This document shows positions 9,955 to 64,000 of a stretch of DNA of 64,000 nt, one piece after another (the first letter of the stretch is position 1; each line of letters opens with the position of its first letter). Where the stretch lies: assembly GCF_963664075.1 (NCBI RefSeq), contig NZ_OY760916.1, positions 4,374,710 to 4,438,709 of the forward strand, in the 5' to 3' direction. The translations under genes and the position numbers were made by a program. Under the pieces are notes generated by a model, which searched no databases, was not told the DNA's origin, and worked only from the letters and a program-made list of their open reading frames with translations. The stretch comes from an uncultured Desulfobulbus sp. GTDB lineage: Bacteria; Desulfobacterota; Desulfobulbia; Desulfobulbales; Desulfobulbaceae.

Positions 9955-11295
9955 ATGAGCAACTGGAGCAAAACAAGTTGGCACAATTTCCCAGCCCTGC
10001 AACAACCCAAGTGGCCGGACAAACAACGATACGATGAGATCGTTCAGACTATTTCCGAATTGCCTCCCTTGGTTTTTGCTGGTGAAATCAGGGATCTGAA
10101 ATCAATGCTCGCCAAGGCGGTCAAGGGTGAGGCCTTTTTGCTGCAGGGTGGCGATTGTTCTGAAGAGTTTTCGCGCTGTACGGCTCCCAACATTCGTGAA
10201 ACGCTGAAAGTTTTGCTGCAGATGGCCGTTGTCTTGACCTACGCGGGCAATAAGCCGGTGGTCAAGGTGGGACGTATTGCCGGTCAGTACGCCAAGCCCC
10301 GCTCTGCGGACATGGAAAATGTCAATGGCATGGAGATTCCCAGCTATCGTGGTGATATGGCCAACTCTGCCGAGCCGGATGCCGAGGCGCGTATTCCTGA
10401 TCCTGGCCGTATGCTCAAAGGGTACCATCTCTCCGCTTCGACGCTCAACCTGCTGCGCGCCTTTACCCGCGGTGGTTTTGGCTCCCTCCATCGTGTGCAG
10501 GCCTGGAACCAGGAGTTTGTCAAACAGTCTCCCATGGGGCGTTCCTACGAGCGTATGGCGGTGCAGATCTCCAATGCGATTAAGTTTATGGAAACCATCG
10601 GCATCGAAACCGATATTCCACGCCTCAAAGAGGTGCAGTTTTATACCTCCCATGAAGCCTTGTTTCTCGGCTATGAAGAGGCTCTGACCCGTGAAGATTC
10701 CATCACCGGTGGTTGGTACGACTGTTCAGCCCATATGCTCTGGATTGGTGATCGGACCCGTCAGCTCGATGGTGCCCATATCGAGTTCCTTCGCGGTGTG
10801 CGCAATCCGCTGGGCATGAAAGTCGGGCCCAATTACGATATTGATACCATCTTGAAGATCATTGAGCGCCTCAATCCGGAGAACGAGGCGGGACGTATCA
10901 CCTTGATTACCCGTTTTGGTTATAGAGAGATTGAAAAATACCTCCCACCGCTTTTGCGCGCCGTGAAAAGCTCTGGTCAGCAGGTGCTCTGGACCTGTGA
11001 CCCCATGCATGCCAACACCTTCAAGGCGGACTCTGGTCATAAGACCCGTGATTTTGAGAATATTCTCTCAGAGCTGCGTTGCTTTTTCGAGCTGCACTGG
11101 GTCGAAGGGACTGTTCCCGGTGGCGTCCATTTTGAGCTGACCGGTGATGATGTCACCGAGTGTGTTGGTGGCGCCCGTAAGCTCTCCGATGCCCAGCTCG
11201 GTCAGCGCTATCTCACCACCTGTGACCCGCGGCTCAATGCCGAGCAGTCCCTGGAGATGGCCTTCCAGATTGCGGAGATGATTCGCAGCAGCTGA
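9955..11295 (+). CDS. Class II DAHP synthase (3-deoxy-7-phosphoheptulonate synthase)
   Basis: Condenses phosphoenolpyruvate with erythrose 4-phosphate, the first step of the shikimate pathway. At 446 residues it has the plant/actinobacterial class II length rather than the ~350 of AroFGH. Visible motifs are WHNFPALQQPKWPD, LQGGDCSEEF, RIAGQYAKPRS, RFGYREIEKYLPPLL and WTCDPMHANT, covering the metal and PEP site. I chose ATG 9955 because GGAG sits 5 bases before it; ATG 9937 in frame is possible. Single gene, closed by a strong terminator. Confidence 0.93.
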   Translation: MSNWSKTSWHNFPALQQPKWPDKQRYDEIVQTISELPPLVFAGEIRDLKSMLAKAVKGEAFLLQGGDCSEEFSRCTAPNIRETLKVLLQMAVVLTYAGNKPVVKVGRIAGQYAKPRSADMENVNGMEIPSYRGDMANSAEPDAEARIPDPGRMLKGYHLSASTLNLLRAFTRGGFGSLHRVQAWNQEFVKQSPMGRSYERMAVQISNAIKFMETIGIETDIPRLKEVQFYTSHEALFLGYEEALTREDSITGGWYDCSAHMLWIGDRTRQLDGAHIEFLRGVRNPLGMKVGPNYDIDTILKIIERLNPENEAGRITLITRFGYREIEKYLPPLLRAVKSSGQQVLWTCDPMHANTFKADSGHKTRDFENILSELRCFFELHWVEGTVPGGVHFELTGDDVTECVGGARKLSDAQLGQRYLTTCDPRLNAEQSLEMAFQIAEMIRSS

Positions 11296-59321: not shown

Positions 59322-62300
59322 ATGAAGCATTGGATAATTAGAAAACATAGTTTTTTAGGACGATCTCAGCGAGTATTTCTCTGCTTGCTATTTTTTATCC
59401 TTCTTCTCGATTGTGCTGTGGTGCAATCAGGGCAGATTAAAGAAAACTCAAAAAAAACGATCACTGCTGCTTTAGTGCTATTATTGGGAGAGGATGTAGA
59501 TCTTCCTGTTATCAAAATATCTTGCCCTGCCAATAATTCAACTATTAAAACAAGAAATCCCTCAATAAGTTTTTCTTATGCAGCCGGCACCTTTGACATT
59601 GATTTTTTATCTCTAATTGTAAAAATCAACGATGTTGATATTACTTCTTTGTTTAATGTTTCAGCAACACAAGCAACTGCAATAATTACAAATCCATTGC
59701 CAGCTGGATCCAACACTCTGTCTGTATCGCTTAAAGACGAAGATGGAAATGTAGTATCAAAAACGTCAATATTTACTGTTGATGTTTTTAAAGTAAATAT
59801 AATAGCTTCTCCTGATGAGGGGAGTACTCCTTTAGAGGTATTATTTCAACCCCAGATTGTGGGGTGGCGATCCCCTTACAGTTATCAATGGGACATCGAT
59901 GGGGATGGAAGTGTTGACGATACACGAATGTCATTTACACATATTTATAGCGACTCAGGATCCCATCATGTTTCCTTACAGGTTGAGGATAGTAGAGGGG
60001 AAACTGCCACAGCAGATACGACGATTAAAGTCGTTACCCCCCCCACTGTCATTGCTGCAGCAGAACCAATTTCCGGGACCGCACCACTAGAGGTCTCTTT
60101 TTCCGCAACGGTGGACGAAGCCGATGGCTCGATTGTCCTATATGAATGGGATTATGATGGTGACGGCACATACGACTTTGCCAGTCAATCTACCGCTTCA
60201 ACGTCTCATACTTATAGCGCTTCAGGTAGCTATACTTCCATTCTGCGTGTGACAGATAATACCGGGGCGACTGCAATAGATTCAATTGAAATCTCGATTG
60301 GCATTGTCCCGGAGGCATCTGCCGAAGCCTCACCACAAGCTGGCACAGCTCCATTGGAAGTTGAATTCTCTGGCAGCGCAACTGATGGTGATGGTAGCGT
60401 AGTCTTGTATGAATGGGACTTTGATGGCGATGGTGTTTATGATTACAGTAGTTCATCAACAGGAAGCGTTTCTCACAACTACTCTTCTTCTGGTATTTTC
60501 AACGCCACCTTAAGAATTACAGATAATGATGGGTTAAAAGATACTGACTCAGTTCTTATCTCCGTATCAGGGGCTCCAACCTCCTTGCCAGGTGCATATC
60601 CTAGGACCGGCGACAGGCCGCTTACCGTTACATTTTTTTCAGATGGGAAAGATCTGGATGGGAGCCCGGAATATTATGACTGGGATTTTGATGGTGATGG
60701 AACACGCGATAGTCGTCTCATCGCATCAATGAATACTACATATACATACGAGCAAGCAGGAACATACAATGCTGAATTAACTGTAATTGATGATGATGGC
60801 TTGAGTACTTCTGCCACAATTACGATTGTTGTTACTGAACCCTCTACAGTATCAGGAACACCATATGTAAATGCTGTAGCTTTCCCGTCAAATGGGGCGG
60901 TTCCTCTAGAAGTCCTGCTTTCTGCCACGGCTTCTGATGCGGACGGCAGTGTTGCTAAATATGAATGGGATTTTCAAAATGACGGGATTTACGATTTCAC
61001 AGAATTGGTAAATCCAGTTTCCTCTATCGGAGAAATTATAGATGTTGGATCTTATAGCAGTCCATATATTGTAGATATCGATAACGATGGAGATCCAGAC
61101 ATTTTTGTTGGAGCAAATTCTGGAACAATCAACTTCCTCCGAAATGATGGGAGCGCTGATCAGCCTGTTTGGACCAATACAGGAACAATAAATGATTCTG
61201 AAGGTAACACTGTCGATGCAGGATCATATAGTAGTCCTGCTGTGATCGACTTGGACAACGACGGTGACCTGGATCTCGTGATCGGAGAAAGTGGAGGACG
61301 AATTTACTTCTACCAGAATGATGGGGATGAAAGCGTACCCGTCTGGACTGCGGTTGATTATCTGAAAGATAGCAGCGGTACGACTATTGATGTTGGATAT
61401 TACTCTTGTCCCTCGTTAGCAGATATCGATAATGACGGTGACCTGGATCTTTTTGTCGGACACAGTGGTGGCACACTCATGTTTTATAGAAATGATGGTA
61501 CATCATCTTCTCCTGTATGGACGGAAGTGGGATTGATCGAGGATGTTGAGGCATCTCAAATCAACGTTGGATCCTACAGCTATCCGAACTTTTTTGATAA
61601 AGACAAAGATGGAGATCTGGATCTAATTGTAGGAATGTCAGACGGACGTACAGTAATGATTGAAAATACCGGCAGTAGCAGTGTCGCAACCTGGGCTTCG
61701 TTCTCTTATCTGCAAAATGAGGATGGAATAGATCTGGATATTGGCTCGTGGTCCAGGCCTGCAACTATCGACATAAATTCTGAGACAACATTGATTATAG
61801 GTGAATCAAACGGACGCTTAATTCTTTATAAAAACACAGATGAAACGAACCTTGTTTTCACACTTGAGCAGCTCTACCTCGGATATGTCGGTGCAGCTAG
61901 TTATGGGGTATTGGCCCTTGCAGATATTGATAACGACTCCGATAAAGATTTATTCATTGGAGACTCTGACGGGACTATATATTTCTACCGGAACTCAGGC
62001 ACACAAGGTGCTCCTGTCTGGACTGGAGAAGGACTTTTAAGGGATGATACAGGGACGATAATTGACGTAGGATCACATGCAACATTGACGTTTGCGGATA
62101 CCGACGGGGACAATGACCTTGATCTCTATGTGGGAGAGGACTCTGGCCATGTCTATCTCTATCGAAATGACGGGAGCCCTATTTCTTCTGGTTTTATCAG
62201 TATAGGCGCTATAACGGATTCTGAGGGCACCGTGATTGATGTCGGATACTGCAGTTATCCAGCTTTTGCTGATATTGATAATGACGGAGACTACGACCTG

Positions 62301-64000
62301 TTTGTGGGCGATTCTTACGGCCGAGTATATCTTTATCGGAACACAAACGACGGTAGCTCTTCAATATGGTCTGCTGAAAACTATCTCCATGACTCGTCTG
62401 GCAATGCCATTGATGTCGGTTCATACAGCACACCCTGCTTCGTCGATTCCGACAATGATGGAGACATGGATCTTTTTATTGGCAACAGTTACGGAGCAAT
62501 CATCCCTTACAAAAATACAGGAAACGTATCAAGTGCAATATGGTCCGAGGAAGACCCATTGCAGGACTCCTCAGCTACCCAAATCGATGTCGGTTCTTAC
62601 AGTACAATTGCAATTGATGACATAGATTTGGATGGTGACCTAGATTATTTAATATCTAACAGTTCAGGAATCATATACGTCTATAAGAATGTCGGAAATG
62701 TATTGCACTCTTACACGAGCATAGGCAGTTATACCGCAACGCTGCAGGTAACTGATAATGATGGTAATACTGCTACGGATGCCGTCCTTATCTCTGTAAA
62801 AGGCCCAGGGATCCCTACAGCTACTGCCCACGCCACACCACTTTCAGGAAACGTCCCGCTCAAGGTGAATTTTACTGGTTCAGGTTATGATCCTAATGGT
62901 AGCATTGTCCTTTATGAATGGGACTTTGATGGGGATGGAGCTTTCGACTATTCCAGCACAGTTTCTGGAGACACCACTCACACATATGAAACTTCAGGTA
63001 CTTTTGATGCAACATTCAAAGTAACTGATAATGAAGGAAATTTTTCTTCTGAGGTTATCCCCATTAGCAGTAATTTTGTTATCTCAACTACAAGGGAAGA
63101 AATCTTTAATCCGGTAGATGGAGCAACGGCTCATATTAGTTTCACAATTGCTGGTGAAGCAAATGTTACAAGTCAAATAATAGATTCCGATGGTAATGTA
63201 GTAAAAACTTTGGTTGATAATGAGCAACGGACGACTGGTACATACAATGATAATTGGGATGGAACCGGTACAGACGGCGACATTGTTAAAGATGGGGTGT
63301 ATTATTTCTATATAGAATGCGAGCAAGACGGAGTTATTACGGTCTACGACCTCAGGGAAGACGCCACCTATCAGGAAATAACACCCTCCCGCTCCTGGCC
63401 CAGTTCATTCTCCCCCTACGAAGATGATGTCGTTGAAGTAAGTTATACCATAGACACCCCTTCGGTTGTCAGTCTGTATTTCTGGAAACGGGACTACGAC
63501 AGGGAAGAATCTTCAATCGCCCCGGTTCGCACACTGTTCATCCGCGATCCAAGAGCTGCAGGAACCTACACTGAAGTGTGGGATGGGGTCGATGACAACG
63601 GGGTTGTCGTCGGTTCATGGGATGGAGGGTATCCCATAACACTCTGGGTTTATGAATTGCCGGAAAGTGCCATTATAGTGACAGGTAATACGCCTGTTAT
63701 CAACAATGTAGATGCTGAGCCGAACTACTTCACGCCTGTGTACAATCCGTACGCCCAGGATTCGGATAACTACACATCGGTTTCTTTTGAACTCTCAAAA
63801 GCATCCACTGTCACCTCCTGTGTCAGGAATGAAAATGGCGTGATTGTTAAAACGATAACAAGAAACAACCTGCCCGCCGGTCAGAATACAATTCTCTGGG
63901 ACGGCAAGGACTTTGACGGCAATCTGGTGAAAGGCGGTTCCTACAGTATATCGCTCAAAGCCATAGACTCCAGCAGCAACCAGTCTCTAACGCGTTATGC
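59322..64000 (+). CDS. Giant secreted protein with PKD domains and an FG-GAP repeat array, 3' end outside window
   Basis: Open from ATG 59322 to the window end, 1559 codons with no stop. A signal peptide (residues ~17-35) is followed by an Ig-like segment, then PKD domains at about 157-239, 240-328, 329-416 and 417-506 (YEWDFDGDG, DNDGLKDTDSVLISV). A fifth PKD begins at 507 but is interrupted near 560 by ten FG-GAP/VCBS-like repeats (VDIDNDGDPDIFVG, IDLDNDGDLDLVIG, ADIDNDGDYDLFVG), and resumes at ~1129 (SIGSYTATLQVTDNDG). A sixth PKD (1161-1250) and three FlgD-Ig-like domains (WDGTGTDG, WDGVDDNG, WDGKDFDG) follow. Asp/Asn-rich loops suggest calcium binding. Probably surface-exposed or secreted; role unknown. 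Confidence 0.88.
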   Translation, partial: MKHWIIRKHSFLGRSQRVFLCLLFFILLLDCAVVQSGQIKENSKKTITAALVLLLGEDVDLPVIKISCPANNSTIKTRNPSISFSYAAGTFDIDFLSLIVKINDVDITSLFNVSATQATAIITNPLPAGSNTLSVSLKDEDGNVVSKTSIFTVDVFKVNIIASPDEGSTPLEVLFQPQIVGWRSPYSYQWDIDGDGSVDDTRMSFTHIYSDSGSHHVSLQVEDSRGETATADTTIKVVTPPTVIAAAEPISGTAPLEVSFSATVDEADGSIVLYEWDYDGDGTYDFASQSTASTSHTYSASGSYTSILRVTDNTGATAIDSIEISIGIVPEASAEASPQAGTAPLEVEFSGSATDGDGSVVLYEWDFDGDGVYDYSSSSTGSVSHNYSSSGIFNATLRITDNDGLKDTDSVLISVSGAPTSLPGAYPRTGDRPLTVTFFSDGKDLDGSPEYYDWDFDGDGTRDSRLIASMNTTYTYEQAGTYNAELTVIDDDGLSTSATITIVVTEPSTVSGTPYVNAVAFPSNGAVPLEVLLSATASDADGSVAKYEWDFQNDGIYDFTELVNPVSSIGEIIDVGSYSSPYIVDIDNDGDPDIFVGANSGTINFLRNDGSADQPVWTNTGTINDSEGNTVDAGSYSSPAVIDLDNDGDLDLVIGESGGRIYFYQNDGDESVPVWTAVDYLKDSSGTTIDVGYYSCPSLADIDNDGDLDLFVGHSGGTLMFYRNDGTSSSPVWTEVGLIEDVEASQINVGSYSYPNFFDKDKDGDLDLIVGMSDGRTVMIENTGSSSVATWASFSYLQNEDGIDLDIGSWSRPATIDINSETTLIIGESNGRLILYKNTDETNLVFTLEQLYLGYVGAASYGVLALADIDNDSDKDLFIGDSDGTIYFYRNSGTQGAPVWTGEGLLRDDTGTIIDVGSHATLTFADTDGDNDLDLYVGEDSGHVYLYRNDGSPISSGFISIGAITDSEGTVIDVGYCSYPAFADIDNDGDYDLFVGDSYGRVYLYRNTNDGSSSIWSAENYLHDSSGNAIDVGSYSTPCFVDSDNDGDMDLFIGNSYGAIIPYKNTGNVSSAIWSEEDPLQDSSATQIDVGSYSTIAIDDIDLDGDLDYLISNSSGIIYVYKNVGNVLHSYTSIGSYTATLQVTDNDGNTATDAVLISVKGPGIPTATAHATPLSGNVPLKVNFTGSGYDPNGSIVLYEWDFDGDGAFDYSSTVSGDTTHTYETSGTFDATFKVTDNEGNFSSEVIPISSNFVISTTREEIFNPVDGATAHISFTIAGEANVTSQIIDSDGNVVKTLVDNEQRTTGTYNDNWDGTGTDGDIVKDGVYYFYIECEQDGVITVYDLREDATYQEITPSRSWPSSFSPYEDDVVEVSYTIDTPSVVSLYFWKRDYDREESSIAPVRTLFIRDPRAAGTYTEVWDGVDDNGVVVGSWDGGYPITLWVYELPESAIIVTGNTPVINNVDAEPNYFTPVYNPYAQDSDNYTSVSFELSKASTVTSCVRNENGVIVKTITRNNLPAGQNTILWDGKDFDGNLVKGGSYSISLKAIDSSSNQSLTRY

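Follow-up and report, generated by a model that had tools for sequence, protein, structure and literature searches.

A PKD domain interrupted by ten FG-GAP units, probably forming two five-bladed propellers, in a protein of an uncultured Desulfobulbus sp.

A 64,000-nucleotide stretch of DNA from an uncultured Desulfobulbus sp. (the window) raises the question of whether one domain of a long protein has been opened to accommodate another. An earlier note, made from the sequence alone, had described a fifth PKD domain that breaks off and whose missing half appears about 570 residues later, beyond a propeller-like module. The gene of this PKD-propeller-FlgD protein (59322..64000, plus strand) encodes 1559 amino acids (aa) inside the window and its stop codon ends 22 bases past it; the whole frame to the stop comprises 1566 aa (locus L023, 1032-5732). 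The domain order is PKD1 to PKD4, a split PKD5, PKD6 and a C-terminal region matching FlgD Ig-like domains. The explanation that we favor, with a probability of about 0.7, is a PKD/FlgD-Ig scaffold in which PKD5 hosts two five-bladed FG-GAP propellers as a recognition side arm beside an RHS partner.

The split of PKD5 was investigated with a PKD profile built from the five other PKD domains of the same protein, which matched both halves separately. The left half (60867..61001, aa 516-560, terminating in ...EWDFQNDGIYDFT) scored 46.9 bits (i-Evalue 1.1e-16, model positions 1-74), and the right half (62700..62801, aa 1127-1160, VLHSYTSIGSYTATLQVTDNDG...) scored 28.6 bits (i-Evalue 5.9e-11, model positions 35-84 of 85). 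Both matches spill into the adjoining propeller unit, the left one through aa 591, and full-length coverage of the profile was reached only when the two halves were counted together. The break lies between the W-D-F strand and the H-x-Y strand, and the domain restarts at VLHSYTSIGSYT... (aa 1127) after an insert of 566 aa (61002..62699, aa 561-1126), which confirms the distance given in the earlier note. Alignment of the halves to the intact PKD3 and PKD6 of the same protein left 6 or 8 residues between them, and alignment to intact PKDs of five relatives (G168, Thiodictyon, G304, Photobacterium sp. GJ3 and G634) left 6-14 residues. The right half scored 37-100 against eight intact PKDs (37-40 in three and 56-100 in five), the lowest scores, toward 37, being those of the most distant relatives.

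Homologues with an uninterrupted fifth PKD, for which a search had been suggested, were indeed found in these same five relatives. Matches to a C-terminal query beginning in the right half of PKD5 start inside the next-to-last PKD in G168, G304, G634 and GJ3, and the same start was deduced for Thiodictyon from a blastp match of residues 1100-1559 to 694-1140. Since the matches start inside the next-to-last PKD, the PKD corresponding to PKD5 is uninterrupted in all five. At the level of sequence, the split of PKD5 and its boundaries are real, and the nested reading is supported.

We counted ten units in the insert, as proposed earlier, with a repeat period of 58 aa instead of about 50: eight units measure 57-58 aa, unit 5 measures 52 aa and the last one 38 aa before the PKD resumes. 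Their identity as FG-GAP/VCBS repeats was borne out by Pfam FG-GAP_3 (PF13517), which matched the insert in 9 stretches with 116.3 bits. The calcium loop ascribed to the units is less uniform than had been suggested. An acidic loop is present in 9/10 units, unit 5 (61737..61892) having lost it (DINSETTL) as stated, and the strict D-x-D-x-D-G form is found in 7/10, units 6 and 7 retaining three acidic residues with S or N replacing G. Unit 5 lies at the seam between two groups, units 1-5 (61002..61877, aa 561 to about 852) and units 6-10 (61890..62699, aa about 857-1126), which are the probable first and second five-bladed propellers. The uncut FG-GAP arrays of this branch (L033-L112, window protein included) comprise 5, 10, 15 or 20 units in 58/84 cases; ten is the commonest size (38/84), five occurs in 17/84, and 15s and one 20 are also seen, as are several five-unit arrays within a single open reading frame (ORF; L063, L070). 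An integrin-type count of seven was not observed in the insert. Units i and i+5 were no closer to each other than other pairs, and an origin of the array by doubling of a five-unit group was rejected on this basis. The codon use of the insert did not differ from that of its flanks (permutation p 0.82) and no exact direct repeat of at least 7 bases was detected between the 90-base stretches around both junctions; an insertion scar as a trace of the event was rejected for these two reasons.

No match over the insert was detected in 35 other genomes, 22 of the same genus (E <= 1e-10). The array was matched in 6/394 other genomes (E <= 1e-25), in frames without PKD, and among the 80 array relatives kept of 167, from a search that may omit the window's own genome and near ones, a single frame (L105) carried a PKD match, a weak one of 9 bits. 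The other FG-GAP_3 matches in the same genome are confined to one 581-aa frame (G000:C1:433726-434415, minus strand). A viral scan with PKD2-4 as query yielded no relative.

Structure prediction was performed on alignments A2 and A6. Both halves of PKD1 and the left half of PKD4 are absent from A6, the left halves having been misplaced in alignment A4, and homologue ends were trimmed to make them align. With PKD rows added, left strands were predicted at model residues 7-16, 21-30 and 36-44 (predicted local distance difference test score [pLDDT] of about 56-70) and right strands at 619-623, 627-637 and 642-651 (pLDDT of about 66-83). Three strands per side would suit two parts of one PKD sandwich. 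That the halves fold together around the insert is a prediction of low confidence. The first propeller unit was predicted as blade 1, in a block of pLDDT 92-94; the first model has a break of low confidence at P0002 residues 356-360, and a structure search with only units 1-5 matched five-bladed folds. In units 6-10, the last unit shows three predicted strands only before the PKD resumes. The insert looks like two five-bladed propellers and not, as had been thought, one; its placement within the PKD loop stands. A Foldseek search against the PDB placed CRTAC1 on top (E 1.7e-9), followed by numerous proteins with two propellers, SF3B and DDB1 among them, with TM-scores of at most 0.44 throughout the 50 matches listed; those against viral models were low as well. 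PKD was absent among the matches listed in both VIA-align lists, from which nothing follows, because propellers fill these lists.

The architecture had been called unusual, and we observed that it recurs within the family. Long PKD-FlgD proteins with further split PKDs are encoded in G032 (same order, other family; L113, 8641-17694, minus strand) and G070 (same phylum, other family; L129/L130), each with several PKDs carrying inserts in the same loop. The G070 protein has four split PKDs, whose inserts measure 134, 303, about 116 and 515 aa; the one of about 116 aa was missed by the split-PKD rule and found by eye. The G032 protein has three, their inserts measuring about 278-302, 146 and about 498-513 aa; a fourth is truncated by the contig end, so that only its right half is present. 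These inserts were searched individually against Pfam. The 303-aa insert of G070 matched NHL (71.6 bits) and Vgb_lyase (51.2, cut-off 50), and its 515-aa insert a full Laminin_G_3 (106 bits) and NHL (56); similarly, the 498-aa insert of G032 matched a full Laminin_G_3 (119 bits) and NHL (57). By eye, the laminin-G sits between propeller repeats in both of these long inserts; three domains are then nested, the laminin-G inside a propeller that is itself inside a PKD. In G032, the 146-aa insert matched Reelin_subrepeat-B (35.9) and InhA-like_MAM (33.2), both above cut-offs, the cut first insert matched Reelin_subrepeat-B just below the cut-off (26.7 against 27), and the 302-aa insert gave propeller-type matches only, all below cut-offs. 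The 134- and 116-aa inserts of G070 matched no Pfam family; because they resemble inserts of G032 by eye, the four inserts appear, likewise by eye, to follow the same order in both proteins. The N-terminus of the G070 protein (L129) has a Dockerin-like start, by eye, and then a free-standing NHL-type propeller.

All breaks are located at or shortly past the D-F/G-D-G loop, and the W of W-D-F is replaced in 2/7 complete split sites. Split PKDs were sought with a rule that was widened after a stricter first version had missed the window protein. Applied to 151 loci and 1317 frames, the widened rule returned 13 rows corresponding to 7 distinct sites in three proteins (one in the window protein, three each in G070 and G032), and 0 rows on the same frames reversed; the same data hold 260 intact PKD matches in 71 frames, duplicates included. 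The stricter rule had given 5 rows (one in G032, three in G070, two of them the same site, and a weak one in G031). The G031 site (L138, 2597-12052, minus strand; 164-aa gap, 7 and 12 bits) was dropped, as it fails the widened rule. With the propeller-in-PKD of G070 as query, none of 390 genomes matched apart from G070 (E <= 1e-25), and no plasmid record was matched across 80% of the query. Split PKDs are carried by 3/8 family members. One intact PKD follows the split PKD in the window protein, and three follow the PKD holding the propeller with laminin-G in G032 and G070. Since both the number of following PKDs and the inserts differ, the nesting likely arose in at least two independent events.

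Other readings of the locus were weighed against the nested one. The left side might be made into a complete PKD by the first propeller unit, in which GSYSSPYIVDIDNDGD resembles a PKD right half, leaving the true right half as a foldless remnant. Indeed, the profile match continues through aa 591, and the right half scores 34 against aa 561-620, near the 37-40 obtained with three intact PKDs. The other five intact PKDs, however, score 56-100, the borrowed strand is predicted as the confident first blade, and homologous arrays require unit 1 to total ten; we consider this reading very improbable, weak but not empty. It is somewhat less improbable, albeit still unlikely, that all ten units together form a single propeller of ten blades within the PKD. 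The predominance of ten-unit arrays and the lack of i/i+5 pairing are in line with a single ring; arrays of five, of 15 and of 20 units, ORFs with several fives, the break in the first model and the five-bladed matches of units 1-5 argue for two.

Least probable of all, by a small difference, is a chimaeric assembly or a decaying gene, with a protein that lost its function when propeller DNA entered a PKD. Relatives with this particular insert were not found in the genomes searched, the remaining FG-GAP_3 matches of the genome all fall in one frame, and the PKD gene is parted from the RHS gene by an IS66-type element, all of which would fit such an accident. Against it stand a single open frame across 1566 codons in a single-contig genome, codon use in the insert like that of the flanks, and relatives that bear other inserts in the same loop. 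Two observations slightly lower the confidence in the favored explanation: the strict calcium loop occurs in seven units, not nine, and the MAM-like inserts of G070 are without profile support.

Beyond PKD5, the protein contains the unbroken PKD1-PKD4 (59793..60836; aa 158-238, 243-327, 332-416 and 422-505), whose profile scores of 108-128 bits come from domains that helped build the profile, and the unbroken PKD6 (62820..63074, aa 1167-1251), also matched by the PKD profile. The C-terminal region (63135..63968; Pfam FlgD_ig, 82.9 bits, and an NCBIfam stretch) was used as query to find the family. An RHS-repeat gene lies downstream in 8/8 proteins with this FlgD-type C-terminus, assigned by Pfam RHS_repeat in 7/8 and by YD-motif count only in G032; the window protein shows both features by which we defined the group. 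Its RHS-repeat gene (L023 7513-11253, Pfam RHS_repeat) is separated from the PKD gene by the IS66-type element (L023 5780-7471; transposase by Pfam, 15-nucleotide inverted ends), which is flanked by an 8-base target duplication, CAAAAAAC. In G032, G070 and G168 the PKD-FlgD and RHS frames overlap or lie within a few bases of each other, and in Thiodictyon a small gene stands between them. Weak Teneurin NHL and YD-shell profile matches were seen in relatives. After the RHS gene, L023 12256-14442 holds a PD40 (WD40-like) propeller gene and another FlgD-Ig gene.

Family members are rare. The C-terminal query matched 5/395 genomes of the phylum and 3/193 of the order (in each case own genome included and one by PKD only), 1/229 of another class and 1/8 others (PKD only); 2/25 matching plasmid records were at least 80% covered. 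In Photobacterium sp. GJ3 (L128 7849-10758) the match runs to 10307, beyond the end of the PKD frame at 9963, so that its PKD-FlgD gene looks broken in that record.

Taken together, these data are consistent with a scaffold made of PKD domains, which are Ig-like, with FlgD-type Ig domains at its end and encoded upstream of an RHS-repeat gene, in which the PKD5 loop between the W-D-F and H-x-Y strands would house both propellers. The PKD5 halves would meet in space and, gripping both propellers at two points, carry them as a side arm on a stalk. A hydrophobic N-terminus is visible in the sequence, and once outside the cell the arm may be stiffened by its calcium loops. It would most likely serve recognition, by sugar or protein binding, in a surface complex with the RHS protein as a putative partner. 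Support for the architecture is good; the recognition role is one that we infer.

How this compares with known systems depends on the part considered. Both PKD5 halves match a PKD profile (compare Pfam PF00801/PF18911), yet 566 residues separate W-D-F from H-x-Y. The insert shares profile match and acidic loop with FG-GAP/VCBS repeats (PF13517, PF01839), but these arrays are mostly grouped by fives. Integrin alpha propellers have seven repeats, the number for which the family is best known, and the grouping by fives hints at a branch with five blades. GH43/GH32 propellers are five-bladed; identity to them is about 6-14%, and no catalytic role is implied. SorCS receptors carry a Vps10p propeller and a PKD domain side by side; the window protein resembles them in combining both in one presumably exported protein and differs in that its propeller is inside the PKD. 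In Teneurins and other RHS/YD-shell systems, NHL-type propellers are linked with YD repeats, whereas the propeller described here is inside a PKD of a separate, neighboring gene product. PMC4735018 mentions lectin propellers with five blades as well as cyanobacterial propellers that resemble FG-GAP. Nested domains are already known as an architecture; neither nesting within a PKD nor a PKD-FlgD/RHS pair was found described in the part of the PubMed Central open-licence text searched.

The same-loop inserts in two distant relatives suggest a building principle for large surface proteins that can be used repeatedly. More tentatively, the PKD loop past D-F might be a general, repeatedly used docking site for whole domains in exported proteins (propellers, jelly rolls, a domain within a domain), and PKD-FlgD/RHS might be an undescribed two-part surface system that exchanges recognition parts there. 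PKD half-matches are easily taken for decay; here they mark nested domains that appear to be intact and that escape notice in a plain domain table. If this is general, PKD loops would be a natural, recurrently used fusion site held at two points and would tie a defined PKD partner to RHS genes.
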